A stretch of 47,723 nucleotides of DNA. Source: a virus. The notes beneath the pieces are model-generated. The model had not been told where the DNA came from and made no database searches. It saw only the letters and a list, made by a program, of their open reading frames with translations. The stretch is from IMG/VR virus record IMGVR_UViG_3300027752_001623, positions 1-47,723 of that record, one strand, 5' to 3'. Made by a program: the position numbers and the translations under genes. Numbering within the stretch: the first letter of the stretch is position 1; each line of letters begins with the position of its first letter. Shown piece after piece: positions 1,724 through 45,260 of the stretch.

Positions 1724-2328
1724 ACAGAAAATTCCTTAAATTTCTCAAAGTTGATGTTCCAAATTACTTGAGGCACACTATAAAAATCTTGTATGCCTTC
1801 TGGAACAGCAATCCCTTTGCGTTTCCACCAATTACGTTTTATGTAATCAGTGATTGCGTTAGTGCTTTTGACATAATCGCCTGAGTATGTCTTGTTTGCT
1901 AGTGTTGTACCGAATGTTGCTTTAAAACCTGCCTGTTCATTTGCCCACTTGCAATTATAATATAGCAAGCCGTCAAACTCTGGCATCTCATGTCCTCTGC
2001 CGTATCGCACCATTTTAGTCATAGGTATATGTTCATTAGGTATGCGTGATAGCCTAGTCCATACTCGGTAATAACCGTCCTTGTATTCCGGCATGTACTG
2101 TACACCTGCTACAGCATATATCTCTTCTGTAGGTATGTGTACCATGCAATGGTATTTGATTGAGTCTACTTTCATTGCTTCGGGTGAAGCATTTTGTTTA
2201 AATCCTAAGTCTCCTGCAATTTTACAAAACTGTTCCAACTTCGGCATCCAGTAGTCATCTAGTTCTACACACCCGATTTTGCCGTCGAAAAAAGTTCTTA
2301 AGATTTTTTGATTGTTGCTATTAGCCAT
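1720..2328 (-). CDS. Unknown protein between desaturase and hydrolase genes
   Basis: The product is about 202 residues and I do not recognise it. It is rich in aromatic residues and has mixed alpha/beta character, with segments such as YAVAGVQYMPEYKDGYYRVWTRLSRIP and a basic NWWKRKG near the C-terminus. No signal peptide, membrane segment or metal-binding cluster is visible. The ATG at 2328 is preferred because TAGGCAG lies just upstream; an in-frame ATG at 2352 would add eight residues. Either start overlaps the desaturase gene, and its stop overlaps the hydrolase start. The tight coupling suggests a shared role with the lipid genes. A GNAT-like acyltransferase fold is conceivable, but I see no diagnostic motif. 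Confidence 0.75.
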   Translation of the reverse strand: MANSNNQKILRTFFDGKIGCVELDDYWMPKLEQFCKIAGDLGFKQNASPEAMKVDSIKYHCMVHIPTEEIYAVAGVQYMPEYKDGYYRVWTRLSRIPNEHIPMTKMVRYGRGHEMPEFDGLLYYNCKWANEQAGFKATFGTTLANKTYSGDYVKSTNAITDYIKRNWWKRKGIAVPEGIQDFYSVPQVIWNINFEKFKEFSV

Positions 2329-3065
2329 CTGCCTACGTCCAATTCGTACCATTTAGTATTAAAGTTTAATCTTGCTGGTCTATAATGATGATTGTTATGC
2401 AGGCTTTCGCCCCAACTAACAAACACTAACCAAGGATTGTTTGTGCTGTTGTTCTTAGTAGGATCTGTTTCGTATGTCAAACCTTTTAAAGGTAAGTGTC
2501 CAACGACATTAACGAGTCCACTAATCAACACAGCCGAGAAACTTGCATTTAAACTTGCAAGTACATACCTGCCCTCAAACCACCAACCAGTTAGTAAAGC
2601 AATTAAGACTAGATTTAAAATAATTAATAATATGTAATTTTTATGGCACCATAACGCATATGGGTCTAAATTCTTTCGCATTTTAAATAGTTCTGTTTGT
2701 GCAAATTGATGATTACTTCTATCAAAAATCCAGCCAAAGAAAGCATAAAATAATCCTTTCGTTGGGGTATGCACATCTTTTGCTGTGTCTGTGTGAGCAT
2801 GATGACTTCTGTTGTGTATAAGGCTCCATGTTACTGGAGATCCTTGTGCTCCTTGGCAACCTAAGTATAATACTAACTTGCGTATAGGCTCCCAAGTTTT
2901 AAAACTTCGATGACTGTGTAGTCTGTGGAATCCAACACTAACACCGTAACCACTATATAACACTGTAAATAATAATGTTGCAATCCATAGTGATGTTGTA
3001 CCGTAAAACAGTGAGTACCCAAAACTAATTGCGGCTAGTGGTAAGAATAGTAAGTAGAATAGCAT
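2298..3065 (-). CDS. Fatty acid desaturase (membrane, acyl-CoA/delta-9 type)
   Basis: This 255-residue membrane protein carries the three histidine boxes that bind the di-iron centre of membrane fatty acid desaturases: HRLHSH (residues 47-52), HNRSHH (84-89) and HNNHH near residue 220. Hydrophobic stretches near the N-terminus and around residues 140-190 should span the inner membrane. The family inserts a double bond into an acyl chain using oxygen and an electron donor. At 255 residues it is a compact member, without a fused cytochrome b5 domain. It begins one base inside the stop of a second desaturase gene, so the two form a tandem pair. Box spacing is typical of delta-9 type enzymes; regiospecificity cannot be read from sequence. 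Confidence 0.92.
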   Translation of the reverse strand: MLFYLLFLPLAAISFGYSLFYGTTSLWIATLLFTVLYSGYGVSVGFHRLHSHRSFKTWEPIRKLVLYLGCQGAQGSPVTWSLIHNRSHHAHTDTAKDVHTPTKGLFYAFFGWIFDRSNHQFAQTELFKMRKNLDPYALWCHKNYILLIILNLVLIALLTGWWFEGRYVLASLNASFSAVLISGLVNVVGHLPLKGLTYETDPTKNNSTNNPWLVFVSWGESLHNNHHYRPARLNFNTKWYELDVGRWLIATIKKS

Positions 3066-3889
3066 TATTTTTTGAGTCCTTTAATAACCCACCCACTCAT
3101 ATCAACTTCACTCCAATGGTGACTGTTGCTTTGTGCATTCCAATATCTGTGATGATTGTTATGTAGCATTTCTCCCCAAGTAAGTATAGCACCTACTCGA
3201 TTGTTCACACTGTTGTCTTTGGTCTCAAAGTTCTTGTACCCAAACCAACTGTAATGACTTAATGCTGTAACAGTACTTGTATTCATTAGTGTTGCCCATA
3301 TACCAAATACTATTCCGTATAATGCAACTTGCCATCCAAATAGTAACCATACTAGAGCAATTGCTCCATAGTTAATTGCCAAATAGTAATCATTTAAGAA
3401 TTGGTAATATTTGTCATTAACGAATCCACGTTTAATGTATGTAACTAATACACGCCTGTCAATGTGCATGTCGAAATACTTTTGTTCCCTGTGCCATGTT
3501 AAGAATGCATGCCAGAAACCTTGTAGTGGACTGTGTGGGTCACCATCTTTATCTGCGTTCTTGTGGTGCCCTGAAGTGTGTACCATAACCCAAGGAAAAA
3601 TTGCGCCGTATCCATTGAACACACTGCATGTTGTCATAATACGTTCTTTCCATTTAGGCATTTCAAATGCACTATGTCCCCAATACCTGTGTAAGCCAAC
3701 TGCCATTCCCACACAACCGAATAGGAAGTATGTAATAAGACCTAACCACAAGTAAGACCAATCGCCATTATATGCCATTATAGGAATTATGCACAATCCT
3801 ACTAACTGTATTGGCAAAGTGTACAACCAGAAGTTTGCTTTTGCTTTGTCTTTAAAAAAGTTTGTTAAGGAATTCAAAATTATTTTCAT
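3065..3889 (-). CDS. Second fatty acid desaturase
   Basis: This 274-residue paralogue of the neighbouring desaturase has all three histidine boxes: HRYWGH (67-72), HTSGHH (104-109) and HNNHH near residue 245. Strong hydrophobic segments occur at about 20-40, 44-66 and 170-200. The sequence differs considerably from the downstream copy, so this is not a recent duplication. The two enzymes may differ in the position desaturated or in substrate. Its start lies 38 bases inside the upstream gene, so it is translated from the same message. Like all such enzymes it needs iron, oxygen and host electron carriers. The family call is secure; the exact reaction is not. Confidence 0.92.
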   Translation of the reverse strand: MKIILNSLTNFFKDKAKANFWLYTLPIQLVGLCIIPIMAYNGDWSYLWLGLITYFLFGCVGMAVGLHRYWGHSAFEMPKWKERIMTTCSVFNGYGAIFPWVMVHTSGHHKNADKDGDPHSPLQGFWHAFLTWHREQKYFDMHIDRRVLVTYIKRGFVNDKYYQFLNDYYLAINYGAIALVWLLFGWQVALYGIVFGIWATLMNTSTVTALSHYSWFGYKNFETKDNSVNNRVGAILTWGEMLHNNHHRYWNAQSNSHHWSEVDMSGWVIKGLKK

Positions 3890-10196: not shown

Positions 10197-12872
10197 TTAT
10201 TGAGACTTCCACTTACGAACAACATATTTCATTACTGCGTTACTAGTAGGAGGTGTAACATTGTTATCTGCCGCTATAGAAACTGTACCGTTTGCCATGG
10301 CGCCTGAGAATACAATCTGACCTGAGTAATATGCGTTACCAGTGGATAAGTTTGTGTCGTGTGCTGAAGAAGATACATCCTGTAATGTCACTGCACCAGC
10401 AACATTGCCAGTAGCGTCTGTGCCTGCGAGTGGATTACCATTGTAAAATAATGTACCAGTTTGATTGTAGTACCTAGTTACAGCACTGTTGGCAGAGTCT
10501 AATGCCTGACCGACAATTGAATAGTCAATAAACAATGTGTCAATAGCAGTAGCGTCTGTGCCTAAGTCTGTAAGGGCAATACCTGAACCAGAGCCAATTG
10601 TTAATTGCTGTGGTTGTGAATAAAATGTTTCTGATTGTCCTGATTCTAATGATTGAGTTGTAAGCATCTCAATATTAGTTTTAATTGTTACCAATCCTCG
10701 TTTGTCGGGATCGTTAGTTTTAAAGTATAGTCTGTTAACTAGTTCTGCAAAAGCGCCTGCTTCATCACTGCTATCGAAGTTAACTTCACCGTTAGTAGTA
10801 TCAACATTAATTTTCCAAGTTTCCATTGCCTGGACATCTGCACTATCGCTGTATTTACTGTTTATATACACACCGCTAACTATGTTTACATCTTCGTCAT
10901 TTAGAATTTTATTTAACCAAACTTCTAATTTTGCTTTAACTGTGTTGAGTGATCTTGTTGCATGTGAACCACTAGTGAAACCTAGTTCACCAAATGAATC
11001 TATAGTATCTTGTGGATCATTAATTATTCTGTACTGAGTTTGATCATCACTAGTAATGTAAATCTCATCAGTTGTTCCTGGCTTTAAACTAAGACCGAAC
11101 CATTGATTCTTACCATTTACCAATGAGATCACACCGTTAACTGTTGGCTCACCGGAAATATCTAGTAAGTAAGCAGGTTTAATAGTTAACTCGTCATCAG
11201 CTACTACGGCTGAAACGTTTGGAGTGAGGCTACCCGTAACATTACCTGTTACTTCGGTAGTAGAATCTATATAAAATGTATTGTTAGTAACAACAGTGTC
11301 CGCTAAACTAAAAGTTGCATCTGCAATCTGTGCCGTAGTATCACTGCCTGTTATATTAAGACCTGTACTAGTGCTTGCCGCAAAACCATGTTCTGGACTG
11401 AATACCTGTATAGTAGTTGCACCACTTGATTGTCCTCTGTTAAAGAAGTCCAATCCAGATGTAATACCAACAGTCAATCCTGCTTCTGTAATTGTAAATG
11501 TACCTGTACCAGTGTTCACACCGGTTACTGGATATTCTGTTCCTACCAAAGTGGCGCTACCTGTAAACTCAACTTTGTCGCCTATTACAATACCTGAAAC
11601 GTTTGCAGTAAGTGTAACTGTACTAGAGGCATCAACTGCGGCTGTAACAGTTCTGCCTGTTGACCATGTATTTGATGGAAGTGTTACACTAAATGTATTA
11701 GCAACGCTGTTTGCAGAAATTGGTAAAAGTTTATTATGGTACCATGTAGTTCTTGATGGTGCTTGTGAGGCTGTGCCTATAACACCAATATGGCTTGCGC
11801 CTTCTGTCCATACATAGCCGTTATACCCTGCTGATGCATTTGGTAATGCTGTAAACACCAGGTTTTCTTGTCCAGTATCAAATGTAACAACTCCAGCTGT
11901 TGGCGTACCTGCTGTAACTCTACCGATACCACTATATACTGTGCTTGCGCCACTGCCTGTGATTAAACTCGGGTCTGCTGGGTCTTTAACAAACACAACA
12001 TTAGCGGCAGAAATACTACTAGTATTTGCAATACCAAGTCCTTCTGTAACTACGTCAATGTGTTTCTTTTCTAAGCCAATAAAGCCTGTGCCGATTTGTG
12101 GGTTAACCATTACTAAACTACTGTCAATATGTCTATAATCAGGAATACTCATGTTAGCATAGAAGCCAGTTGTAGCGGCTCCGCTTGCAATAACTGTATT
12201 TGATATAATGTGGTTAACATGTGTGTTGCCGTAATATGTAATAGCAACATCATCTGAATTTTGTGGGGCAAAACCTAAGTACAATGAATGATCCGCTGTG
12301 GAAGTATTAGCACTTACAAAGTTGTAATCATATGCTGTATTTACTAATGCACCTGTACCACTGCTATCACCATCTTGTTTTACTCCGTTAAGTAAAACTG
12401 TGATATCATCTGCTGTAAAGGATCTGCTTGTTTGGTTTTGGTTAATAGAGTTATTACCACTTACAATACTGTCAAACACAGTTCTAGCTAGACTGGTGCC
12501 CGCGGCATTTGTTAAGTTGGCTGTACCAATTAAAGTAGTATTTGCTTTCCATGATTTAGATTTACTTACACCGTCAAACTCTCCCGAGCCTTTCGTGTAT
12601 CTAATATGCGGAACTGTGAACTTAATAATCTGACTGTTTGCTAAACTAAGTGTTCTAGCAGAAGCACCCAGGGTGCCTTCTAATGTTACAGTCTTATTGT
12701 ATGTTGCACTGATGGCATCATTTGTGTCAGCGCCAATATAAACTTGTTTGCTATCTGTAGCAAAGCCAATCTCGCCAGGTCTAAGCGGATGTGGTAAATC
12801 CTGCTTTAATCCTCGCCTTTGTTGGATTCTGCTGATAATAATTTTTAAATTTGCATTGTCTTGATGTGACAC
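10197..12872 (-). CDS. Large tail-fibre-like virion protein
   Basis: This 891-residue protein is rich in Thr, Ser, Asn, Gly and Val and predicted beta-rich throughout. Near the N-terminus, QQRRGLKQDLPHPLRPGEIG then FATDSKQVYIGAD matches the motif found at the start of many phage fibre and tropism-determinant proteins (RRG...L.pGEigf..D...lyiG). The rest holds repeated beta segments such as VTLTANVSGIVIGDKVEFTG, typical of fibre shafts, without a recognised receptor-binding tip. The start is GTG at 12872, preceded by TTGGAG at 8 bases and by a late-type promoter octamer at 12903-12910. Attachment to the host surface is the likely role. Tail fibre or baseplate wedge attachment protein is a confident class-level call. 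Confidence 0.8.
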   Translation of the reverse strand: MSHQDNANLKIIISRIQQRRGLKQDLPHPLRPGEIGFATDSKQVYIGADTNDAISATYNKTVTLEGTLGASARTLSLANSQIIKFTVPHIRYTKGSGEFDGVSKSKSWKANTTLIGTANLTNAAGTSLARTVFDSIVSGNNSINQNQTSRSFTADDITVLLNGVKQDGDSSGTGALVNTAYDYNFVSANTSTADHSLYLGFAPQNSDDVAITYYGNTHVNHIISNTVIASGAATTGFYANMSIPDYRHIDSSLVMVNPQIGTGFIGLEKKHIDVVTEGLGIANTSSISAANVVFVKDPADPSLITGSGASTVYSGIGRVTAGTPTAGVVTFDTGQENLVFTALPNASAGYNGYVWTEGASHIGVIGTASQAPSRTTWYHNKLLPISANSVANTFSVTLPSNTWSTGRTVTAAVDASSTVTLTANVSGIVIGDKVEFTGSATLVGTEYPVTGVNTGTGTFTITEAGLTVGITSGLDFFNRGQSSGATTIQVFSPEHGFAASTSTGLNITGSDTTAQIADATFSLADTVVTNNTFYIDSTTEVTGNVTGSLTPNVSAVVADDELTIKPAYLLDISGEPTVNGVISLVNGKNQWFGLSLKPGTTDEIYITSDDQTQYRIINDPQDTIDSFGELGFTSGSHATRSLNTVKAKLEVWLNKILNDEDVNIVSGVYINSKYSDSADVQAMETWKINVDTTNGEVNFDSSDEAGAFAELVNRLYFKTNDPDKRGLVTIKTNIEMLTTQSLESGQSETFYSQPQQLTIGSGSGIALTDLGTDATAIDTLFIDYSIVGQALDSANSAVTRYYNQTGTLFYNGNPLAGTDATGNVAGAVTLQDVSSSAHDTNLSTGNAYYSGQIVFSGAMANGTVSIAADNNVTPPTSNAVMKYVVRKWKSQ

Positions 12873-15999: not shown

Positions 16000-16344
16000 T
16001 TATTGTGGGAGGTTGTCTTTTACGGCACCTAATGCTTGGTCATCTGCCATTGCACCAACATCAACGCCTTGATCTTCTGCATCTGGGTCAGTTACATCAT
16101 TGGCAATTTTGCCTTTAGGCACGATACTATTCTCGTCCGCACTATCAATGACTTCCATGTCATTGAGCGCCTTGATGAGTTCATCCGTGCTCATCAAAAA
16201 TCCGTCGTCTGCGAGGCTCTTACGGAATTCTTCCGTTGGTATCTCACTAACGTCGGACCCAACTTGCTGGACAATTCTGTCTTTAATAGCAAGTTGTAAG
16301 TCGTCGAAGTATAGTTCGAAGAGTAATACTTCGTTAATCTTCAT
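16000..16344 (-). CDS. Small acidic protein with capsid-targeting-like N-terminus
   Basis: This 114-residue acidic protein has no recognised domain. It begins MKINEVLLFELYFDDL, the N-terminal pattern shared by eight proteins in this half of the window; LFE at 8-10 is a possible prohead protease site like the T4 gp21 site (I/L)xE. The middle is helical (TDELIKALNDMEVI) and the C-terminus disordered and Asp-rich. It starts one base downstream of the larger tagged protein's stop, so the two are co-translated and may be packaged together. The capsid location is inferred from the N-terminus and the neighbours. Confidence 0.7.
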   Translation of the reverse strand: MKINEVLLFELYFDDLQLAIKDRIVQQVGSDVSEIPTEEFRKSLADDGFLMSTDELIKALNDMEVIDSADENSIVPKGKIANDVTDPDAEDQGVDVGAMADDQALGAVKDNLPQ

Positions 16345-18332: not shown

Positions 18333-18533
18333 CTATCTCTTTATGATACTTGATTCTTTCTTAGCTTTGGGACCTGGCTTTTTGTGAGCCCACTTAGTTT
18401 TCTTAGGCTTCTTTGGACGTTGGGCTATACGCTGTGCATCATTAGCTATCGGTTTTACCACAGTAGCTACTGCACCGGCACTCATGCCACCCATTGATGC
18501 AAATTCGTTTAATACAATGTCTGATATCTTCAT
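18333..18533 (-). CDS. Small basic protein with capsid-targeting-like N-terminus
   Basis: This 66-residue protein begins MKISDIVLNEFASMGGMSAG, with LNE at 8-10 as a possible prohead protease site. It ends in a strongly basic proline-rich tail (RPKKPKKTKWAHKKPGPKAKK) suited to binding DNA. This is the make-up of T4 internal proteins: a short cleavable tag and a basic body. The late-type octamer GATAAATA sits exactly 5 bases before the ATG, and no ribosome site intervenes, which predicts a leaderless mRNA. A packaged DNA-binding protein is the best guess. Confidence 0.7.
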   Translation of the reverse strand: MKISDIVLNEFASMGGMSAGAVATVVKPIANDAQRIAQRPKKPKKTKWAHKKPGPKAKKESSIIKR

Positions 18534-19841: not shown

Positions 19842-20807
19842 TTATTTTTTGAGGAGTTTTGATTTAAGTAAATCTTTAAAGTAATTCTCTGCCATTACTT
19901 GTTGCTCACTACTGGTATGTGAAAAGACTTGCATTACTTCTTCAATGTCTGCATCTATCATAATCGTTTTTACACGTTTAATACCTAATACATTTGCGGC
20001 ATCAAATCTATGGTGCCCATTAATCAAGTAACCCTTTTTGTCTACTATGAACGGTTTGTCTTCATTGTTTAAAAATACATCTCGAGATTTCTTTGCCAAG
20101 CCATCTACACGTTGAGTCTGTACTGGCTTAATCTTATCTATGGTCATCTCGCCTTCTTTATAGTTAAAGTCGGAATCTTGTATATGCTGTCTATTAATTT
20201 GCGGTAACTCGTTTCTAGCAAAAGTCTTTTCGTGTATTGGTCTAACATAACTTTCTTCTATGCCCTTTCTCAATCGTACAACACCACATGCTAATCTATC
20301 GCCAGCATTGCCTGTCTTAAGACTTTCATCGTCACCGCCTGTGCCTAAGTCATCTTCGCCTGCATGTATAACTATTGCTCTGCCAACAATACTACGCTCG
20401 CCAGTTAAATCCACACGCCTAGCAACAATCTTAAATTTTGCGATGCCGTCCTCGTTAGCAACAATGTTTCCTAAATCACCGATGTGTCCGTCAGACAATC
20501 CGCCATGCTCACTGTTATCTGGATTGTAATGTCCACCAGCACTTGCACAACCATCGCTTAGGTCACCAAATTCGTGTACATGGAATCCATGTTTACCCGG
20601 AGTAAGTCCTTTAATTATACCTCGTATAATAGTAGGGCTATCAGGTTCTTGCTTCATAACTATTGCACCAGTAATGTCGCCTTCAACATGTTCTAGTTGC
20701 ACTACTGCTTTAACTGTTTCTTGTGCTTCCTGGATAGTACTAACACTAGCACACTCGCACGTCTTTGCTTTTGTTCTAGGGCAACTTGTAAAGTCTGTTG
20801 TTCTCAC
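19842..20807 (-). CDS. Cu/Zn superoxide dismutase fused to a ParB-like domain
   Basis: This 321-residue two-domain protein has a complete Cu/Zn superoxide dismutase at residues 32-180. Metal ligands are His76, His78 and His148 (copper), bridging His93, and His101, His108 and Asp111 (zinc). Cys87 and Cys174 can form the structural disulphide, and GNAGDRLACGVV supplies the guiding arginine. Residues 200-300 form a ParB-like domain with the hallmark LINGHHRFDAANVLG after a strand KPFIVDKKG. There is no signal peptide, unlike most bacterial Cu/Zn enzymes, so it stays in the cytoplasm or enters the virion. The start is GTG at 20807, one base inside the TAG of the giant upstream gene, with AAAGGTG before it. 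No frameshift separates the two parts; both domains are confident, the purpose of the fusion is not. Confidence 0.88.
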   Translation of the reverse strand: MRTTDFTSCPRTKAKTCECASVSTIQEAQETVKAVVQLEHVEGDITGAIVMKQEPDSPTIIRGIIKGLTPGKHGFHVHEFGDLSDGCASAGGHYNPDNSEHGGLSDGHIGDLGNIVANEDGIAKFKIVARRVDLTGERSIVGRAIVIHAGEDDLGTGGDDESLKTGNAGDRLACGVVRLRKGIEESYVRPIHEKTFARNELPQINRQHIQDSDFNYKEGEMTIDKIKPVQTQRVDGLAKKSRDVFLNNEDKPFIVDKKGYLINGHHRFDAANVLGIKRVKTIMIDADIEEVMQVFSHTSSEQQVMAENYFKDLLKSKLLKK

Positions 20808-23800
20808 TATAGTACACCTTTGTTAAGACTTAACTGAGCCCATTGCTCTCTACCAGCGCCTGCTTGTGTTGGTATAACACTAATTGACGTTGACATTGAA
20901 TGTCCGCTACGTCTAAATGCAATCAAATCTTTTTCATTCTTAATCATTGCAGTTTTCATATTAGGTATACTTATTAGCAATAGCCCGTCAAAATCATCTC
21001 TGTTCTTATACCATAAGAAGTTTTGTGTTAAGTAAACATTTTCAAGTTGGGTTATATCCGTCTGCGTTGCTATAGCATCACATAATGGGCCAGCATAGCC
21101 TTCCATATCCATTGTGAATAGTTCCTGTGCTATTGCTTTTCTTACTTTCTGATTATTTACATCAGTTGCTGGTAAGTCTACGTTCAAACCGTTTATAAAT
21201 TTAGTCCAACCTAAACTTCCACCTTGTCCGCCAATGGATGACATAATAGTTGGAATGTATTCTGCGTACTTGTCGATAACTGCTCTCTTAGCCTTTTGAC
21301 TTCCGCCGCCGTAACCAATTCTTCCGCCTGTGCTACTAGTAGCCGCTTTAAGTTCTACTTTGCCTATGCCCTTGATCTCCAAGTCACCTTCACCTACTGC
21401 AAGGCTAATCTGATTACTTAAACATGCCAAGCCATATTCACCTGGACCTTTTTGGTTAACACCAACACCATATGATGTTAATGCCCTAAAGGCTGATATA
21501 GATATATCATCTCCGAACACTGCTTGGAAACTGTTAATAGGTTTGTTTAACTCTTTAATGTTTACTACAGTGCCTTGTTTCTCTAAACGTGCTATGAAGC
21601 CGCTCATTGTGCCATAGTCACTGTCTAGTCCGCCGATTATCCTTGTTACATCTTGTATAACTTTTAATTTTTGCTTATCTGATAGTGGCTCGTCCATTAA
21701 TGGAAAACTAAATGCTTTGTCTAACGTTTTACCAATATGGTCACTGTTAAGTAATTTGTAAATTCTATCTAGTATATTAGCATGTTGCTCATTGCTGGCA
21801 TCTAGTCCGCTAATAGTTTTAATAATAGTATCTTTTTCAACACCTAAGTCAGTATACTCGTTAATTAGTTTAGTAACGTGCTGTTTGCTCCATTCAGATA
21901 AATTAATCTGTGCTTTCGTTGCATCTGGTAATACACCTACAAACATCTGTAGTATATTTCTCGCACATGCATCGTCGCCGGCCTCTGCTCGCAACCTTCT
22001 AAAATTGTCTAGCATTGCAGGAACAGGTATTGCTTGGTAAGCCAACATTTGCTTTTTAAGGTCGCCTACAGGAAAATGGTCTGCTAGTAAATCATTTATT
22101 GTATCTACTTGCTTAAAGTCTGGTACATTTTCCTCAACTCCAACTCTATTTCTATCATGTACATATGAATCCGGGTCTTTCTTAAACTCTGTATCTTTAG
22201 CTTTTTTAAGTTCTCTTCGATCTTTAGTAAAACCTTTATTGCTAAATCCAAACGAGCCTTTAGGCTTTCGATTAGGCTGGCTCACTTTTTTTATACTTTT
22301 GATTCCCAATGCTTTCTTTTGCTTCTCCGGATGGCGCACCCCAGGTGCTAATTGTAGATAAACAGCATATGGACTTGACGCCATTACTTCTTTATTACTA
22401 CCATCTTTATATGCCACGTTCCATAGGTGTTGTCCACTAGGAATATCCTTTGATGCTTCGTAAATTTTATCAATTTTTTCTTTGCTAATTTTACTAATAA
22501 TGTTTATCTGCTCTTCCAACGGCAACTTATCAAATTTATCAAATACACTTTCTTTATTCATTGGGGTCTCTTCTGCTTTTATTTTTTTAGACAGTTCTGG
22601 GTTCTGTGAGGCCCATGCCGCCGCTGAACCTAAATCAAACGGTTCTCCGTGTGGGCCTTGTAAATACTGTTGTGGAATTAGTGGTGCGAAGTCATATGGC
22701 TTTCCGCCTATTCTGCCGTCACCCAGTTCATCTGTTATTGCAACTCTCTTTTGTTTTGTCAACTTTATTAAGGCAAGGTCTTGTTTCCAAGAAACATATC
22801 TACTGTTTAAATCTTTAAATTCTATCTCGTACACCATCTTGAACTTTGCAAGTATCCTTATTGATATATCGTATCTCCAGTTACTGCCGTAACGTTGAAC
22901 ATTGTCATAGATTTCCTGAGCCTGCAAGGCTGTAAATTTGTGGGCATGTGGCATTACTAACACATCGCGGTACTTAGACTTATGCATGGACGCATTCATA
23001 TCAAACGCATTTGAAATTTCCTCGTCTGTCATGTTTGCTAATTTGTTTGCGGATCCTACTGTACTCTTTGCATAATATACCTCTCCGCCATACGACCAAG
23101 CATTTAATTTTGCAAGTCGTTGCTCTCCATGCTTATCCATAAACTTCTTTTGCTTCTGCATTAATTGTGTTTTCTTGTCTACATCAATGTTAGCAGAATC
23201 AAATCCTAGTTTCTGTGATATTTTATCTACACCGTTTATAAAGTTAGATATTGCATCTGTTCGTGCCTTCAACAATACAGGTAACTTACCTGCATCGAAC
23301 ACATCGGCGCCGTATCGGTTCTTAGCTCTAAAGTGCCTGTCAAATACATCTCTTATATATTGTTGCATTAGATCTCTGACACGAGACATAGGTTCACTAC
23401 TAAATGGGTCAGGTGCTTCTTGGTTGTCAATAAGTGCAACAACTTTCATAAGTTCTTCTGTTGTTGAATATGTCATACCAAAATAGTCCAATCCGTCATC
23501 TGAGTCTCTATGAGGGTCTATATCGTTTAGTGCAGGATCAAAGTCCGTCATTGGGTGGTTTGGATTAGTAGTCAGCTTGGGAGTCATTGCCTTTATTAAC
23601 TCACTGACTTCAGCGGCTGAGTCGTAGTACATTGCAGGGTTTGTTTCTTTTATTCGTGTTAGTTCATCAAACCGTGCTCTTAGTTTAATTATCATCTTGC
23701 TTAATGCGTTATCAGTATAGTCGTCATCGCCAGTGCCGTTAGGATTATGTCCTACTGCAACTGGGTGGTCATAGTCTTCATAACTGTCCAAGTGCTTTAT

Positions 23801-26563
23801 TAGTTGTTCTACACCTTTTTCGTTAACAGGATTACCTACTTTAAACCAACTGCCGTCTTTGTTAATACCGGCGGAGTTATACGATCCGTTAACCAACGTC
23901 CTATAAAAAACCTTCCACTCTCGTTTAGGAAGTTGATCCCATGCATAAGCAATTGTCTCGTCATCTTGATTTGTTGCTTTAGCAATAGCTTTAAAGAACT
24001 TGTCACCTTGTTCGCCTGATGTTGTTGCTTCGCCGTTGCTTGCTCGCCATAGCCCTTTTATAATTTTCTCAACTTGTGGTGATGTTAAGAATGCAGGTAA
24101 TGTAACAATTGCCTTTTTAAACAATCTATTGACACCGTTTTGTATTCTACTGAGTAATGCTTGTTGTTCTATATCACGGTCTTTAGTAACATAGTCAGCC
24201 TGAGCGTTTACCATAGTATCAAGTTTGTTGTAATCAAGTTCAAAGTCTTTTAATGTATTTCGGAATACACCAATTGCTTTTGCATTCAGTGATCCTCTAT
24301 TTAAATTTTGGCTTAAATCATACCCAGCTTGTGCTATTGCATTTACAAAGGCTTCTTGTGCTTTCTTTAAAAATGCAGGTGCTTCTTTGCTAGGTGCTAA
24401 TTTTCTAGGTTTTGCATAACCCGTAATCGGTTCACCGTCAGTAGCTTCTTCTACATGCTTCGAACCTGTTTCTGTTTCCCATTTCTTAACTGCTTCTTTC
24501 CATGCCTCATCTGCGCCTGGACTAATTAACTTTCTGTAACGAGTTAAGTTGTTAACTGCTACAGCAACATGATCCATTGAATCAATATATCCGCCTTTTG
24601 AGAAAAATGGTTTAATTGTATCTACTATAGGAAGTTCAACATCGAATCTGCCTTTGATACGCTCTTCGTCTTTTGGATCAACTGCGTCTAAACTGTTAAT
24701 CAGTTTAAATAACGCTTTTGCATAATCGGTATTATGTGTTTGATCACTGTATGCCGAGCTCATTGTAGCCGCATAACGTATAACTGCTTTAGCGGCTATG
24801 TCAAAATTAGTGTGATAATCATCACCGCCACCGATTCTAAATTCAATTAAGTTGTTACCGGTTGTACCGTCTTTGTCAGTTTTGAAGTTAATACTACTAA
24901 ACTTGCCAGTACTAATACCGCTAGAGATTATTCTCTCAATCCCTTCTATAGACTTCATATCTTCTGGATTTGACTTTAATTTCTCTGCGGCTTTCTTTAA
25001 ATTATCGTATTGACTCTTGGCATAACTGTTACTGGATCTGCCAAATGTACTTAACAAATACTTGTCGCCTAATAACACAGCAAGTTTTACTTTGTTTACT
25101 TCTTGAGGAGTCTCGCTGTTTAAACTCATTGTTACATGTAGTCCACAACTTCTATTAGTTTCAACACCTTCGCCGGACATCCACTCAAACATGCTCTTCA
25201 TTTCGTGTAGCATGTCTCTAGGTGAATCATATACCGGACTAATAAGCTCTGCACCAGTGCCGCCGTCTGATTCAATTGAACTGTCATCTTCTACACGCCA
25301 GTACGTCTGGTCTGCTCCGTAGCCGCTGTGATATTCACCTGCTTCTACTTCTTTAAATTCACTGCTCTTGTCTGTCCAACGTGTTAGTTCAGCGGCAACT
25401 TCTTCTACGCCGCCGCCACTGTTTGGGTTATGCAGATATATGTCTAGCGAACTTAATGCACTCAGCCAGCTACCGTGTTCATCGCTGGCCCATGTGTCTA
25501 TAGGATACTCTTCTTCTGCTTGTTCAACGGCTTCTTCCATTGCTTCACCATTGTCTCTAATGCTTTCTTCGAGCCATTCTATAAGTTCATCTTCTTTTAC
25601 TTCTTCTGCATACTGTCTTGCAAATGCTTGAAGGTCCCAATCTGCAAACTCGTCTCTGTCATCAGCATCTACACTGGCTAAAAATGATTCTTTGTACTCT
25701 TCAACTTCATCCATGTCTAATTTATCGTCAACAAAAGCGTCTATATATTCTTCATCTTCTTTACGGTCTGATACCATACGTTGAATAATCTCGCTTTCGT
25801 ATTCGTATGCTTTATCATACATCCACTCTCTATACGATTCTTGCACTGCTTCTACGCTTCTGCTACCTTCTTGCTCGTACACATAGTCTTCGATGTTGTA
25901 CCAGTTTTCGTCATCTAACCAGTCTTCGTCATCAGAGCTATTAGCAACGTCATTCCAAACTGTTTCTGCTTCAAACCCACATTTAATGTTTACATCTAAT
26001 GCCGCTTTGGCTATGTCAGGTTTGTTAAAATTGATTTCAAATAATTGCTCGTCACCTTGTTCACGTAACTTAAATTTACGCACAAGTTTTTTCATGCCTG
26101 TTTTTATTTTGTTTAGTTTAAGATGCGATGAATTAGACTTACTTAACTTAGATAGTTTACTAGCATTAAGTACTTGTACTTCTTCATCTGGTTCGACCAG
26201 TTGATACTCACCCTTAGGATCTTGTACTACAACTTTGTCTGGATTCGGGGAGTTGCCAACTTTACTAATTACTTTGCCTACTACTTCGCCTTTATCATCG
26301 TGATACTCAGCATCTACTTCTATATCTTTGGCTTTAGTTTTTGTATATGTTGGTTCAACTTTCTCAGGCTCTACGTCTTTAACATCGAGGCCAGGAGTTA
26401 CAGTAGGACTACCTTTGTCTACTTTAGGCTTAGGTGCATTGCTTGTTGCATTTGCTTTTGCAGTTGCCCCTGTCTGTTGTTGACTAGTCGGTGTACTTGA
26501 ACCTGAATTCATTCCATATTCTACCAGTACACTTTCTAAAGTTCTAACATCTGTAAATTTCAT
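20807..26563 (-). CDS. Giant protein with amidoligase-like and nuclease-like regions, tagged N-terminus
   Basis: This 1918-residue protein begins MKFTDVRTLESVLVEYG, with LVE at 13-15 a possible prohead protease site, then a Ser/Thr/Pro/Lys-rich linker to about 150. Residues 196-600 carry the landmarks of the Amidoligase_2 family (COOH-NH2 ligases): CGFEAE (195-200), WRVEDDSS...GTGAELISP (422-443), TNRSCGLHVT (469-478) and NLIEFRIGGGDD (571-582). A very acidic insertion (205-355) splits the first two. Residues 600-1700 are mostly helical and unassigned, with a Lys-rich part near 1450. Residues 1720-1740 read GEGDLEIKGIGKVELKA, the order D...ExK of PD-(D/E)XK nucleases. T4 packages Alt in a similar way. 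Domain readings are by eye. Confidence 0.85.
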   Translation of the reverse strand: MKFTDVRTLESVLVEYGMNSGSSTPTSQQQTGATAKANATSNAPKPKVDKGSPTVTPGLDVKDVEPEKVEPTYTKTKAKDIEVDAEYHDDKGEVVGKVISKVGNSPNPDKVVVQDPKGEYQLVEPDEEVQVLNASKLSKLSKSNSSHLKLNKIKTGMKKLVRKFKLREQGDEQLFEINFNKPDIAKAALDVNIKCGFEAETVWNDVANSSDDEDWLDDENWYNIEDYVYEQEGSRSVEAVQESYREWMYDKAYEYESEIIQRMVSDRKEDEEYIDAFVDDKLDMDEVEEYKESFLASVDADDRDEFADWDLQAFARQYAEEVKEDELIEWLEESIRDNGEAMEEAVEQAEEEYPIDTWASDEHGSWLSALSSLDIYLHNPNSGGGVEEVAAELTRWTDKSSEFKEVEAGEYHSGYGADQTYWRVEDDSSIESDGGTGAELISPVYDSPRDMLHEMKSMFEWMSGEGVETNRSCGLHVTMSLNSETPQEVNKVKLAVLLGDKYLLSTFGRSSNSYAKSQYDNLKKAAEKLKSNPEDMKSIEGIERIISSGISTGKFSSINFKTDKDGTTGNNLIEFRIGGGDDYHTNFDIAAKAVIRYAATMSSAYSDQTHNTDYAKALFKLINSLDAVDPKDEERIKGRFDVELPIVDTIKPFFSKGGYIDSMDHVAVAVNNLTRYRKLISPGADEAWKEAVKKWETETGSKHVEEATDGEPITGYAKPRKLAPSKEAPAFLKKAQEAFVNAIAQAGYDLSQNLNRGSLNAKAIGVFRNTLKDFELDYNKLDTMVNAQADYVTKDRDIEQQALLSRIQNGVNRLFKKAIVTLPAFLTSPQVEKIIKGLWRASNGEATTSGEQGDKFFKAIAKATNQDDETIAYAWDQLPKREWKVFYRTLVNGSYNSAGINKDGSWFKVGNPVNEKGVEQLIKHLDSYEDYDHPVAVGHNPNGTGDDDYTDNALSKMIIKLRARFDELTRIKETNPAMYYDSAAEVSELIKAMTPKLTTNPNHPMTDFDPALNDIDPHRDSDDGLDYFGMTYSTTEELMKVVALIDNQEAPDPFSSEPMSRVRDLMQQYIRDVFDRHFRAKNRYGADVFDAGKLPVLLKARTDAISNFINGVDKISQKLGFDSANIDVDKKTQLMQKQKKFMDKHGEQRLAKLNAWSYGGEVYYAKSTVGSANKLANMTDEEISNAFDMNASMHKSKYRDVLVMPHAHKFTALQAQEIYDNVQRYGSNWRYDISIRILAKFKMVYEIEFKDLNSRYVSWKQDLALIKLTKQKRVAITDELGDGRIGGKPYDFAPLIPQQYLQGPHGEPFDLGSAAAWASQNPELSKKIKAEETPMNKESVFDKFDKLPLEEQINIISKISKEKIDKIYEASKDIPSGQHLWNVAYKDGSNKEVMASSPYAVYLQLAPGVRHPEKQKKALGIKSIKKVSQPNRKPKGSFGFSNKGFTKDRRELKKAKDTEFKKDPDSYVHDRNRVGVEENVPDFKQVDTINDLLADHFPVGDLKKQMLAYQAIPVPAMLDNFRRLRAEAGDDACARNILQMFVGVLPDATKAQINLSEWSKQHVTKLINEYTDLGVEKDTIIKTISGLDASNEQHANILDRIYKLLNSDHIGKTLDKAFSFPLMDEPLSDKQKLKVIQDVTRIIGGLDSDYGTMSGFIARLEKQGTVVNIKELNKPINSFQAVFGDDISISAFRALTSYGVGVNQKGPGEYGLACLSNQISLAVGEGDLEIKGIGKVELKAATSSTGGRIGYGGGSQKAKRAVIDKYAEYIPTIMSSIGGQGGSLGWTKFINGLNVDLPATDVNNQKVRKAIAQELFTMDMEGYAGPLCDAIATQTDITQLENVYLTQNFLWYKNRDDFDGLLLISIPNMKTAMIKNEKDLIAFRRSGHSMSTSISVIPTQAGAGREQWAQLSLNKGVL

Positions 26564-26566
26564 GTA

Positions 26567-26848
26567 TTATCGCCTGTTTAATGTTTTTAATCTTCGACTT
26601 GCTGGGTTAAGTCTTTTTGTTCTCTGCGACTTTCTTGAAAGCCTTGCACCCATACGAGCTTTAGTCTTTTTCAATGTCATACGCTTCTTCATATTGATTG
26701 GCGCTGAACATTGAGAAACATTACTGACTACTCTGCCCTTACGTCTGCCACTAGTACATCTAACGGCACGTTTAATCTTCTTACCACTTCTACGCCATAC
26801 CATCCTGGCTTCAGTGATTGTATCTTCTGTTAGTTCTGCTAATCTCAT
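26567..26848 (-). CDS. Highly basic small protein with capsid-targeting-like N-terminus
   Basis: In this 93-residue protein about one third of residues are Lys or Arg. It begins MRLAELTEDTITEARM; ITE/A at 11-14 fits the T4 gp21 cleavage rule (I/L)xE before Ala particularly well. The remainder (WRRSGKKIKRAVRCTSGRRKG onward) carries two cysteines, Cys31 and Cys47, and ends in Arg-rich repeats. This looks like a condensing DNA-binding protein processed and kept inside the head, as T4 internal proteins are. It starts at the stop of the coiled-coil membrane protein gene and is followed after 3 bases by the giant protein gene. Confidence 0.75.
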   Translation of the reverse strand: MRLAELTEDTITEARMVWRRSGKKIKRAVRCTSGRRKGRVVSNVSQCSAPINMKKRMTLKKTKARMGARLSRKSQRTKRLNPASRRLKTLNRR

Positions 26849-27097: not shown

Positions 27098-27502
27098 TTA
27101 CAATAAATCCTGTTTAGTAAATTCCATATTAATACCTGTTTTAGTATTAATAGTCCCTGCATTTAGTACCACAAGGTCTAGTTCGTCTATTAATGTTGAT
27201 GGTGTGTGTGCGCCGGGCTGTTCAGTTGCAAATTTAAAAATGTATCCTGCCCCGGTCATACTTGGTGCGCCGTAGTTTTCTAATAAGTTTGCACCGACTC
27301 CATTTAAAAATACAGGATTATTCATCACTGTAGGCATTGCCCGAAGTCCGATTACTTGTACTACACTTTCAAAATCTTTTTGTGTAGCATCTGCAAAATC
27401 ACCTGTTACGGTTATATCTAGACTTGTAAACAAAGTAAAGAATTCGATGTTACCAGTTAGTACTTCTACTGCTCCCATTGAGCCTGTTCTTGTCATTGGC
27501 AT
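27098..27502 (-). CDS. Small virion-type protein 1
   Basis: This 134-residue protein is beta-rich and nearly neutral (MPMTRTGSMGAVEVLTGNIE, then DLVVLNAGTINTKTGINMEF), with no cysteine pair, signal peptide or membrane segment. It is the last of three small genes that each have a late-type octamer and a strong ribosome site; here CGGAGACACACA precedes the ATG and GATAAATA is at 27527-27534. Such expression fits an abundant virion component. No terminator follows, so its transcript continues into the membrane protein gene. No family is recognised. Confidence 0.7.
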   Translation of the reverse strand: MPMTRTGSMGAVEVLTGNIEFFTLFTSLDITVTGDFADATQKDFESVVQVIGLRAMPTVMNNPVFLNGVGANLLENYGAPSMTGAGYIFKFATEQPGAHTPSTLIDELDLVVLNAGTINTKTGINMEFTKQDLL

Positions 27503-27526
27503 TGTGTGTCTCCGTGCTATTTGTAG

Positions 27527-27534
27527 TATTTATC
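27527..27534 (-). promoter_or_regulatory. T4-late-like promoter GATAAATA
   Basis: GATAAATAC on the minus strand lies 24 bases upstream of the ATG at 27502, with a GGAG ribosome site between. It directly follows the terminator of the preceding gene, so the downstream gene must use it or a site nearby. Confidence 0.7.
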
Positions 27535-27569
27535 TATATTGTCAAAAATACGAGCTCGGAACGATACTC

Positions 27570-27598
27570 AAAAAAAAGCACACCTAAGTGTGCCTTTT
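27570..27598 (-). terminator. Rho-independent terminator
   Basis: On the minus strand the stem GCACAC/GTGTGC with loop TTAG is followed by a run of eight T. It lies 23 bases after the stop of the 109-residue protein gene. The stem sequence is the same as in the terminator at 28022-28051. Confidence 0.85.
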
Positions 27599-27621
27599 AA
27601 AAATTGTTTAATTAGTTAAAA

Positions 27622-27951
27622 TTAAGCAACTCTATATTCACCTGCTGTTGCAGTTGCGTTAGCGCCTGAACCTGTTAATGAAGGTTGAATAGCTTCTAAT
27701 ACTCTAGCCGCTGTTGGTGAACCTTCTACTGCAACGTGCATTACTGTTGCTGATACTGAGGTAATAATTACTGGTGTACAAATTGTTGCTAAAGCTGTTA
27801 CTAATGCTTCACCTTTGTTTGGTACGCCTGCTGTGTGACCAAATGAACTAATGTCATCTACTCCGTCTACTTCGTCAATGACGAAATGACTTAAAGAACC
27901 TACTAATAGTTGTCCTTCTACCACTCCACCGTTTACTCTTGTCTGTGCCAT
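27622..27951 (-). CDS. Small virion-type protein 2
   Basis: This 109-residue protein has Ala, Val, Gly and Thr dominating (MAQTRVNGGVVEGQLLVGSL, then VIITSVSATVMHVAVEGS). It has no cysteine-rich site or signal peptide. It shares the MAQT opening and composition with the next gene upstream, suggesting a loose duplication. It has its own late-type octamer (28004-28011), ribosome site TTTAGGAGAAATAAC before the ATG, and its own terminator, so it is a one-gene unit. Such units usually make an abundant product; a capsid decoration or tail component is a reasonable guess. Confidence 0.72.
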   Translation of the reverse strand: MAQTRVNGGVVEGQLLVGSLSHFVIDEVDGVDDISSFGHTAGVPNKGEALVTALATICTPVIITSVSATVMHVAVEGSPTAARVLEAIQPSLTGSGANATATAGEYRVA

Positions 27952-28003
27952 GTTATTTCTCCTAAACTTGGTAGTATATCTATCGACATACTGTTGTTAC
28001 GTT

Positions 28004-28011
28004 TATTTATC
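28004..28011 (-). promoter_or_regulatory. T4-late-like promoter GATAAATA
   Basis: GATAAATAAA lies on the minus strand, 52 bases upstream of the ATG at 27951 and immediately downstream of the previous terminator. It leaves a leader containing the AGGAG ribosome site. Confidence 0.65.
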
Positions 28012-28021
28012 TATTTCAGTC

Positions 28022-28051
28022 AAAAAAAAGCACACATGAAGTGTGCTTTTT
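28022..28051 (-). terminator. Rho-independent terminator
   Basis: The stem AAAAAGCACAC/GTGTGCTTTTT with a five-base loop is followed by more T on the minus strand. It lies 22 bases after the stop of the 122-residue protein gene. The A-tract on the other side may let it stop transcription from both directions. Confidence 0.85.
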
Positions 28052-28072
28052 AATTGTAGTTATAGTGATATC

Positions 28073-28441
28073 TTATAGTTCGAAAGCGGCAACTGTAGCT
28101 AATGCTAAGTTAACACCGTCAACTGTTCCTAAAGAAATCGTAACGTCTTCTAAGTGAGCCGCTAAAGTCTCAGAATTAGTTCCATCATATGTGTCAGTAC
28201 CATGCGTACCTTCAAATAGAACTCTAAGTCCTTGTCCTGCTCCACCTGTTGCGTCGACTGTGCCAACTGCTACTGGTGTTAAGCCTTCGATGCCGAATGC
28301 TTTTAATAATACGTCTACAACGCCGTCGACAGCTAATTTAGCTGAAACGTCTGCGCCGAAATCAATTTGGATACCTGCTAAAGGTAGACCACTGTAGTGA
28401 CCTGCGGTTACTGCCGCTCCTGCGTTTTGAGTTTGTGCCAT
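28073..28441 (-). CDS. Small virion-type protein 3
   Basis: This 122-residue protein is rich in Ala, Gly, Val and Asp (MAQTQNAGAAVTAGHYSGLP, then GVDGVNLALATVAAFEL with some acidic turns), and is predicted beta or mixed. It shares its first residues with the 109-residue neighbour. A late-type octamer CATAAATA is at 28473-28480, TTTAGGAGAATAAA precedes the ATG, and a terminator follows, so it is expressed as a single gene. Likely an abundant virion component. No family is recognised. Confidence 0.72.
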   Translation of the reverse strand: MAQTQNAGAAVTAGHYSGLPLAGIQIDFGADVSAKLAVDGVVDVLLKAFGIEGLTPVAVGTVDATGGAGQGLRVLFEGTHGTDTYDGTNSETLAAHLEDVTISLGTVDGVNLALATVAAFEL

Positions 28442-29756: not shown

Positions 29757-30768
29757 CTATTGCCTCTAGAAAAGATTTGTCTTCAAACATAATGGACGGT
29801 ATCTGCTTTTCTTCATTTACTATATTTATCATATTATTATGATTATGTTCTAATTTTTCATGTATGCTTTCTTTCAATTGCTTTAATTCATGTGGGGTTT
29901 TATGATAATATCTTTTAACTTGCAACACTAACTGTTCCATACGCTCGTCTAAGTCTTCTATATCGTCAAATGAGTAATCAAACAGTTCGTCATACAACAC
30001 AAATCCCATTGTTTTTAACGCTTGATGTTGTTTTTGAGAACCTGCTATTAAGAAAGGTTTCTTACCCATAATAGCATGTACAGATTTTTCCGTAAAAAAC
30101 GGAACCATGTATGAAGTTTCAGAAACAATTTGCATCCAAGACTGATTCCATTGTGTAGGTACTTCCTTATGTCCTATGCCGCCCAATCCAGATGGGTTTA
30201 ATCCTGCGTCTAAGTCCAGTGACCTGTATCTTAATTTAGGATGCCACCATTTAAATTGGTCATCGAGTTCTGGGTTAGAAACACACCAACTCCATGCGCC
30301 ATTATCTAACATATCGTGTTTACACAAATAGTCCATAGTACTTACTCTATGGGGTCTGTTGTCAGCGGCAAAATTCATCATTATGTAAGGGTAGGTTATT
30401 TCTGCGTCAGTGTAATCTAATTGAGCATGAGTCATTGTAAACCAGTAAGTAGGGAAATGACTTACTTTTATATACGGGTCAATTAGAGGATTTCTTATTA
30501 TAGAGTGATTGCCTACAACCAAATGCATTTTAATTGAACGCTCTTTGCAGTATGACGTTATATTATCCCATAGTAATTCAGGGCCAGCATCTTTAGTGTC
30601 TGGAAATAAAAAGTTGTCGCAATCGGGACCTATCTCTTGAGGCCAAAAGAAAACAATTTCATCACAATCTAATGAGGTGTTGTTTAATACAGCATGTTTT
30701 ATGAGTGTGTTATCGCAAGTTGTACCTCTAGAAAAGAAGTATGATACTAAACGTTTACTACTTGCCAC
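29716..30768 (-). CDS. Glycosyltransferase-like protein with TEK motif (paralogue B)
   Basis: This 350-residue protein shares with the gene starting at 19825 a C-terminal block: FFTEKSVHAIMGKKPFLIAG followed by ALKTMGFVLYDELFDYSFDD. This resembles the sugar-nucleotide binding region of exostosin- or fucosyltransferase-like enzymes, where a Thr-Glu-Lys precedes the strand that closes the pocket. The N-terminal half has Rossmann-like strands (DEIVFFWPQE, IKMHLVVGNHS). No ATG is available near the start; GTG at 30768 lies inside the end of the ligase-like gene. Likely a cytoplasmic enzyme that modifies virion or host surface glycans, though the activity is inferred. Confidence 0.6.
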   Translation of the reverse strand: MASSKRLVSYFFSRGTTCDNTLIKHAVLNNTSLDCDEIVFFWPQEIGPDCDNFLFPDTKDAGPELLWDNITSYCKERSIKMHLVVGNHSIIRNPLIDPYIKVSHFPTYWFTMTHAQLDYTDAEITYPYIMMNFAADNRPHRVSTMDYLCKHDMLDNGAWSWCVSNPELDDQFKWWHPKLRYRSLDLDAGLNPSGLGGIGHKEVPTQWNQSWMQIVSETSYMVPFFTEKSVHAIMGKKPFLIAGSQKQHQALKTMGFVLYDELFDYSFDDIEDLDERMEQLVLQVKRYYHKTPHELKQLKESIHEKLEHNHNNMINIVNEEKQIPSIMFEDKSFLEAIDDIRTIRTIPYAN

Positions 30769-32065
30769 CCGGTTTACCGGACCCGAAGTTTAATCTGCTA
30801 AACTCTAATCGGTCTACTAGTTTAAGAGCATTGCCTATTCTGTCTACAGCAACAAATCCCTCTTCTCCTGTTACTTCGTAACCTTTCTCTGTTTGTACAA
30901 AGGTCCCTATTTGCTTGATCTCTTCTAACTTCTTAATTATTTTTACTTTTGCTTCAATGAGCTTTAAGTATAAGTCGTATACTGCTACGATACCAGGCAC
31001 ATGTTCTTTAATAAACTTAACACCTTGTATCATTAATTCTGTTTTTGAATCTATAGTTTTCTGAGTTTTAACTTTTGCTATTTCTTTAGTCATAAAGTCA
31101 ATATACTTTTGTACAAAACCTTGTGCAAATTTAGTAGGCTCGTCAAATGATCCTTGCCTGACTTGATTGTTTGCATGTGCTTTTAATTGCTGTAAAAAGT
31201 TCTTACCAATTAAGTCTGTACCTTTTTCTAACCAACTAAATGTTTCTGCATCGATGCTTCCTAAGTAACTGTTTGCATCGGATATAGCACCCATAATATC
31301 AGTACTCTGTTGCTTAGTCATTGTAACTGTGCCGCTGAGATCTTTAATTAATGCATCTCTGTGCCATACTCCAGCTGGTGCTCCGTCGCCTAGTACACTA
31401 GCATCGAAGCCAAACTTGGCTTGCGTATCTGCTAATGTTGGGCCGCCAACATATTCTGTATGCCACACAATGCCAAAGCCTGCACTTAAAATTTGCTTTG
31501 CAAGGTCACTGTTCTTTGGAACAGCATACGCTATTGTGTTTGGTTTGAATACAATATGTTCTTCGCCATCTAGTGAAACTGTGCTAATATCTTCTTGTCC
31601 AGCAAATAACATGTCACCTTGAGCAACTGTATTCCAGTTCAAACGGCTAAGGTGTTTAAGTGCTAGTTTCATTTTTGTTCTTAACCCACTCGCATCCTTC
31701 TCTGGAGATGGGTCAGCGTGGTAGGTATCAATGTCTTTATCAGTGAAGTTTAGTTTTGGCTTATTTGCAAATACACCTTTGGTACCCACAAAGAACTTGC
31801 CTGAAGCTGGATCTATTCCTGCTACAATAGCCGGAGCGCCGTCCCATTTAGTTGTCATACTTATTGGTGCTTTACTGTTACCATCAAGCATATCATGTAA
31901 ACTGTATAGATAGTCTACTGCTTCTCTGGCGCCGGTATATCCTTTGTTAAAGATATTATCCTCTAAGTGTTCTAAGTGAGTGTTCTTACCGTCTTTAGAT
32001 TCTCGTAAAATACTTTCACTTAGAATCGATGTTACGAGCGGTTTCGATATCTCTAAAAACTTCAT
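30758..32065 (-). CDS. Ligase-like nucleotidyltransferase with capsid-targeting-like N-terminus
   Basis: This 435-residue protein begins MKFLEISKPLVTSILSESI, with LSE and LRE within the first 22 residues as possible prohead protease sites. It continues KNTHLEHLEDNIFNKGYTGA and MTTKWDGAPAIVAGI. The KWDG at 73-76 matches motif I (KxDG) of polynucleotide ligases and capping enzymes, whose lysine takes AMP or GMP. GKFFVGTKGVF, QGDMLF and HIVFKPNTIAY follow in the order expected of the later motifs. I recall a family in T4-like marine phages with this KWDGAPA signature (DUF6267). C-terminal helices contain long Lys-rich stretches. Packaged or injected end-sealing is a hypothesis. Confidence 0.7.
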   Translation of the reverse strand: MKFLEISKPLVTSILSESILRESKDGKNTHLEHLEDNIFNKGYTGAREAVDYLYSLHDMLDGNSKAPISMTTKWDGAPAIVAGIDPASGKFFVGTKGVFANKPKLNFTDKDIDTYHADPSPEKDASGLRTKMKLALKHLSRLNWNTVAQGDMLFAGQEDISTVSLDGEEHIVFKPNTIAYAVPKNSDLAKQILSAGFGIVWHTEYVGGPTLADTQAKFGFDASVLGDGAPAGVWHRDALIKDLSGTVTMTKQQSTDIMGAISDANSYLGSIDAETFSWLEKGTDLIGKNFLQQLKAHANNQVRQGSFDEPTKFAQGFVQKYIDFMTKEIAKVKTQKTIDSKTELMIQGVKFIKEHVPGIVAVYDLYLKLIEAKVKIIKKLEEIKQIGTFVQTEKGYEVTGEEGFVAVDRIGNALKLVDRLEFSRLNFGSGKPGGK

Positions 32066-45230: not shown

Positions 45231-45260
45231 ATTATACTACCAGTTGTAGCCTAATGTCAA
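45231..45260 (-). promoter_or_regulatory. Sigma70-type promoter for uvsW
   Basis: Minus-strand TTGACA (45260-45255) and TATAAT (45236-45231) are perfect hexamers with an 18-bp spacer. It lies across the 3' end of the receptor gene, whose stop is at 45237, and leads to the uvsW ATG after 24 bases. Confidence 0.8.

Follow-up and report, generated by a model that had tools for sequence, protein, structure and literature searches.

The subject of this analysis is a giant polypeptide encoded in the window, i.e. the whole 47,723-base stretch, an IMG/VR virus record, in which a packaging-like N-terminal peptide, an amidoligase-like domain and a nuclease-like motif are joined. A first-pass annotation, made from the letters alone, had described a protein of 1918 residues with these three parts. 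The open reading frame is real and intact, running on the minus strand from an ATG at 26563 to a stop ending at 20807 (1918 codons), and the landmarks that had been named are all present: GFEAE at residue 196, GAELISP at 437, NRSCGLHV at 470 and IEFRIGGGD at 573, together with D1727...E1737-x-K1739 in GEGDLEIKGIGKVELKA. The layout of the protein and of its surroundings is given in Table 1. Near-identical copies of the gene were found in two other contigs (L002 and L003) and two full-length relatives have ~68% identity to the window protein, which appears to belong to a family of giant phage proteins that had not been described before. As read here, with a probability of about 0.6, the product would be a head-packaged, protease-processed effector polyprotein, its location in the virion, its cleavage and its activities being inferred.

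Table 1. Features of the giant gene and of neighbouring genes in the window.
Feature	Position	Strand	Remarks
Tagged neighbour	16000..16344	-	MKINEVLLFE
Tagged neighbour	18333..18533	-	MKISDIVLNE
Cu/Zn superoxide dismutase fused to ParB-like domain	19842..20807	-	GTG start overlaps stop of giant gene by one base
Giant protein gene, 1918 aa	20807..26563	-	Tag, amidoligase, helical backbone, linker and nuclease-like cargo
PD-(D/E)XK-like nuclease cargo, residues 1570-1918	20810..21856	-	Stand-alone tagged form of ~356 aa also exists
Putative active-site stretch, residues 1706-1748	21320..21448	-	GPGE..L..L...GD..I.G..vE.KA..SS.GGR (E1709, D1727, E1737, K1739)
Two [LI]xE sites at linker/cargo junction, residues 1555-1569	21857..21901	-	LSE, INE
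Conserved linker module of ~80 aa, residues 1478-1557	21893..22132	-	C-terminus of cargo-less members
Variable region, residues 1333-1477	22133..22567	-	Longer inserts in other members, e.g. phrog_727- or phrog_3560-like
Conserved helical middle, residues 681-1332	22568..24523	-	Confident AlphaFold model
Amidoligase_2 (GS-fold COOH-NH2 ligase) domain, residues 176-680	24524..26038	-	
Acidic helical insertion in amidoligase domain, residues 203-385	25409..25957	-	
Low-complexity spacer and short domain, residues 16-175	26039..26518	-	LRE (166-168) and LFE (174-176) adjoin amidoligase
Tag, residues 1-15	26519..26563	-	MKFTDVRTLESVLVE; LxE site at its end, then YG; LxE kept in 20/20 of family alignment
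Upstream gene, very basic 93-aa protein	26567..26848	-	Tag MRLAELTED..ITEA; similar gene near 91/96 relatives
Neighbour with 26-aa N-terminal extension	30758..32065	-	Extension (..ILSESILRESKDG) missing from cyanophage S-CAM9 homologue

The Amidoligase_2 profile (PF12224) scored 23 bits against the full-length window protein and 26.9 bits against the domain alone, above the curated gathering cut-off of 22, and was matched independently by 17 of the 25 aligned relatives; PHROG 2443 ('amidoligase enzyme') also matches the window protein. In the alignment of 25 sequences, which takes in a 500-aa stand-alone protein of phage Atu_ph07 and in which identities fall to 22% (22-24% for the Atu_ph07 protein), the motifs GFExE, DxSI, ExxSP, TNxSxGxH, K, FxRxxNxY and EFRxxGG are invariant. 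The corresponding active-site set is carried by seven known phage amidoligases, except for the second His of THVH, which is replaced by T in the window protein, and comparison of the ligase family with these seven by hhalign gave 92% (E 7e-7). As judged by profile and motifs, the window protein is a member of Amidoligase_2. The first-pass annotation had made its amidoligase claim depend on profile support and on conservation of the site residues among homologues, and both were found. A pattern scan found no cellular relatives of the domain, and a sequence search of the PDB with the ligase and cargo profiles gave no meaningful match.

An AlphaFold model spanning residues 165-1345 (mean pLDDT 84) agrees with this assignment. 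When the model was searched against the PDB using Foldseek, 22 of the 24 top-ranking hits were glutamine synthetase (probability up to 0.87), the best of these having an E-value of 0.04 and no single hit reaching 0.001; gamma-glutamylcysteine synthetase stood lower in the same list. For the predicted fold, then, the hits are individually weak but their concordance is not. The very acidic insertion that had been said to split the ligase domain was recovered as well: its 183 residues contain 32.8% D+E and 6.6% K+R (net charge -48), and they are confidently modelled as a helical block that follows the GFEAE strand and precedes the remaining domain. For the helical middle that follows the ligase, the Pfam scan gave no match.

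The amidoligases of phiEco32, PaP3 and O4 (PHROG 2443 and 7469) share with the window protein the motifs ExE, D-S, E, H and EFR and the predicted GS-like fold, but they are small and stand-alone, some of them adjoining amidotransferase or ATP-grasp genes, whereas the window protein has in addition the acidic insertion, the tag and 1,200 further residues. Its nearest match in a cultured phage, AUZ94978.1 of the Agrobacterium jumbo phage Atu_ph07, has the same motifs and likewise a long acidic stretch separating GFExE from DxS, but it comprises 500 aa and is without linker and nuclease cargo. That the known phage amidoligases are stand-alone and untagged favours a reading in which the window protein is synthesised during infection as an early or middle enzyme, which is probably also true of the phiEco32- and PaP3-like enzymes, and its N-terminal peptide has another role. 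This is judged improbable, given that no obvious amidotransferase or ATP-grasp partner gene adjoins the giant gene, unlike in, for example, J3S and O4, and that its tag is common to unrelated neighbours.

The tag, MKFTDVRTLESVLVEYG, is kept in almost every relative, and unrelated proteins encoded nearby have similar N-termini. Nearly all full-length relatives start with a tag of the type MKFxDxxTLExxLxEYG, and the layout is that of the N-termini of T4 IPII and IPIII (both MKTYQEFIAE) and gp24 (MAKINELLRE); gp22 of T4 starts with MLKEQLIAE. The consensus of the T4 head protease is (I/L)-x-E. T4-type proteases cleave after glutamate, and the T4 targeting peptides are 10-20 residues long (PMC5694885, PMC9958956). 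Among 280 non-redundant protein clusters from the surroundings of the giant genes, 29 have the tag pattern, which was devised after the window had been seen, compared with 4.4 in shuffles (maximum 11 in 300 shuffles); in the window alone the statistics are weak, with 4 occurrences against 0.74 expected and a shuffle maximum of 4. The 26-residue extension that sets the 30758-32065 neighbour apart from its S-CAM9 homologue is an independent sign of such tags. The packaging tag proposed earlier stands as a shared peptide at the N-terminus that has a T4-like [LI]xE site, while its action as a packaging signal is suggested by likeness. The superoxide dismutase-ParB protein begins with VRTTDF...STIQEA, which may also be a tag; its ParB-like domain is of the nuclease/partition type.

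In IMG/VR, dozens of relatives of about 1,550-2,350 aa share their type of N-terminal tag and their backbone, to which exchanged C-terminal cargo is joined. Residues 1 to ~1330 are common to the family and are followed by a variable stretch, a linker of ~80 residues, and then cargo or nothing. In the members L009 and L011, most blocks up to about residue 1500 show 95-100% identity, whereas their cargos are only 17-25% identical; conversely, the cargos of the window protein and L011 are 98-100% identical on backbones that are 35-86%, mostly near 55%, identical. In L018, L020, L045 and L054, the protein stops at the linker. Shorter tagged relatives of 720-941 aa with linker and nuclease also occur (L075:6624-9317, and L076, L077 and L080), and the middle of L075 matches phrog_727, which is found in cyanophages and annotated as a structural protein in S-E7.

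The cargos are partly related to one another. That of the L010 type is a remote homologue of the window cargo (hhalign 97.8%), and the idea that the cargo types are unrelated enzymes was rejected for the L009/L010 type. No relation of the L038-type cargo (L026, L038 and L124) to the window cargo was detectable by profile, and cargos of this type and that of L041 may be unrelated enzymes. That one cargo type is unrelated by profile was counted against the head-packaged effector reading. A layout GP[GA]E...D...[EL]xK, found by regular expression only, is present in the cargos of L010, L029, L122 and L126. The cargo of L041 (L041:12178-13518) includes KTDVYM...ISLKAG..KQFGQV, which by eye is like the D...SxK motif of restriction endonucleases and has no profile match.

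Relatives of the C-terminal module of the window protein (350 residues) are present in 79 fetched loci. Across the alignment of 29 modules, just six columns are invariant, G236, E239, G256, D257, E267 and K269, corresponding in the protein to E1709, D1727, E1737, K1739 and two glycines. By its sequence, this set is the catalytic pattern of PD-(D/E)XK nucleases, including the helix glutamate. The AlphaFold model of the cargo (pLDDT 82) has a helix, three strands, a helix, a helical insertion and a strand, an order predicted to be compatible with the alpha-beta-beta-beta-alpha-beta core of this fold. The nuclease claimed by the first-pass annotation was thus strengthened by highly selective conservation and by the order of strands and helices, but the search for restriction-endonuclease-like folds and profiles that it had proposed was negative: Foldseek found no significant match to the cargo model in the PDB, and no Pfam nuclease family was matched among the 29 modules at E<=1. 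The cargo is therefore named nuclease-like and not a member of the superfamily.

These negative searches, and the fact that the only strong fold matches were three uncharacterised phage proteins in BFVD (E 1.6e-14 to 1.3e-7), speak for the possibility that the cargo is not a nuclease and that its conserved E, D and ExK residues are part of a different fold. This is considered unlikely, as the sole invariant columns coincide precisely with the PD-(D/E)XK set, on a compatible secondary structure, and the PD-(D/E)XK fold is small and heavily decorated, such that Foldseek can miss it. The nuclease-like module is also found alone, in proteins of ~356 aa with a tag of their own, e.g. MRYKDLVEY or MRALDFIREY; the backbone was not found on these contigs, which are fragments.

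At the linker/cargo junction, [LI]xE is present in all 25 non-redundant sequences, with 43 motifs in total. When stretches of these proteins were drawn at random (2000 draws), the motif turned up on average in 6.1 sequences, with 7.1 motifs overall, and at most in 14 sequences and with 18 motifs. The junction sites of the window protein end at E1557 (LSE) and E1569 (INE); the whole protein has 14 [LI]xE sites, others of which end at residue 15 and before the amidoligase (168 and 176). The INE site lies in LINEYTDL, which aligns with LVEYEDL in the tag of a stand-alone nuclease, as would be expected if the junction motifs were relics of fusions with tag-bearing genes and the mature protein stayed in one piece. 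Against such an origin, the motif persists in every one of the 25 junctions, usually as two sites with one at the linker end, and the cargo-less L018 and L054 terminate in INLNEK; relic status is judged rather unlikely.

Counting against the effector polyprotein reading, a gp21-type protease (PF03420) and T4 Gp23 were not found in 14 family contigs, which are fragmentary, although the PF03420 search does detect T4, S-CAM9 and Atu_ph07; searches of family contigs for Peptidase_S77 and Peptidase_S78 likewise gave none. The contig G004 terminates in a tail sheath gene, and head genes may therefore lie beyond it. The tail sheath of a relative resembles that of PA5oct, and the replicative helicase encoded in the window is closest to those of jumbo phages such as PA5oct (53%).

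The neighbourhood of the giant gene is conserved. In 65 of 96 relatives, a count that includes redundant loci, superoxide dismutase and ParB-like genes, fused or separate, lie no further than 6 kb away, and the basic 93-aa tagged protein is a candidate DNA-binding internal head protein. The cargo-exchange family, the protease-site-like motifs at its junctions and this neighbourhood with its Cu/Zn-superoxide dismutase/ParB-like gene go beyond what had been noted for the locus. The frequency with which the small basic tagged protein is encoded just upstream, together with the match of the phrog_727 region of a tagged relative to cyanophage proteins annotated as structural, is in keeping with a virion-internal or core protein that is processed in the head and whose enzymes act not in the new host but in assembly or packaging, e.g. 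by cross-linking head proteins or trimming DNA; what is known of the tag and the [LI]xE sites speaks for the prohead only. As the cargo is exchanged, strongly diverged or absent on closely related backbones, which would be odd for an essential assembly enzyme, such a role is thought quite unlikely.

Other genes of the window, all on the minus strand, were noted in passing. A 557-aa protein (45237-46910) that starts with a signal-like sequence and contains a TonB-dependent receptor plug domain (PF07715, E 6.5e-8) is, by its predicted domain, a phage-encoded outer-membrane receptor-like protein. Two adjoining fatty acid desaturase genes (PF00487) lie at 2298-3889 in this phage genome. An 891-aa protein (10197-12872) whose N-terminal domain is of the Major tropism determinant type (Mtd_N, E 3.7e-7) is likely a fibre, and three adjacent small proteins whose starts are similar (MAQT.../MPMT...; 27098-28441) are possibly paralogous virion or decoration proteins.

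Under the effector polyprotein reading, the N-terminal tag would act like the capsid-targeting sequence of T4 and direct the protein to the core of the prohead. The maturation protease of the head would then cut after [LI]-x-E, which would strip off the tag and detach the C-terminal nuclease from the backbone, and might also cut just before the amidoligase. The cleaved products would exit the head along with the DNA. Once inside the new host, the GS-fold amidoligase would use ATP to join a carboxylate to an amine on a host protein, peptide or metabolite, and the PD-(D/E)XK-type cargo would cut DNA, either of the host or of a rival.

Ejected phage proteins are known in a few models (T4, N4, P1, phiKZ-like phages). 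If the proposed reading is correct, peptide-type ligation would be added to the chemistry available to a phage in the first minute of infection, the tag together with [LI]xE would make packaged proteins of uncultured phages recognisable from their sequence alone, and the exchange of weapon cassettes inside virions would have a testable case. The family is broad in IMG/VR, yet homologues of the window C-terminal module and of three other cargo types were not detectable in 50,697 deposited phage records. In the parts of the literature covered by our search, phage amidoligases are treated as separate, mostly auxiliary genes, and no description was found, in the literature searched, of an effector polyprotein that joins an amidoligase to a swappable nuclease cargo.

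Three known systems invite comparison. T4 Alt and IPI-IPIII are located in the head core and processed by gp21, and Alt and IPI are ejected (PMC9958956). The likeness lies in a short N-terminal tag that ends in a glutamate-type protease site, and the comparison with T4 Alt drawn by the first-pass annotation, which envisaged that a virion-borne ligase could conjugate amines to host proteins or cell-wall peptides at the start of infection, is reasonable as an analogy. Alt, however, is an ADP-ribosyltransferase of 682 aa, and the window protein had no Pfam hit to such a domain; none of the T4 internal proteins has an amidoligase or a swappable nuclease. The window protein may thus be like Alt in logic, but it is not an Alt.

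The polyvalent proteins are likewise large and multidomain, are thought to enter the host with the phage DNA, and often combine modifying enzymes, nucleases and ParB-like domains (PMC5512222, Iyer et al. 2017); an amidoligase is not mentioned in the text on them (PMC5512222). They differ in that a Pfam scan of the window protein shows none of their hallmark domains, LPD3 being matched by one family member at E 0.004 only, and in that packaging of the window protein seems, by analogy, T4-like.

With the polymorphic toxins, the family shares a constant N-terminal part and the exchange of C-terminal nuclease-like modules; those systems are bacterial and have immunity genes. Cargo swapped between phages in the same manner suggests an arms race over the target of the cargo. 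It is tentatively proposed, at somewhat less than even odds, that the head protease doubles as the releaser of a modification enzyme and of an interchangeable DNA-cutting warhead, and that lineages trade warheads, directed at hosts or at rival phages, behind the conserved [LI]xE junction, in a virion-borne counterpart of the bacterial polymorphic toxins.
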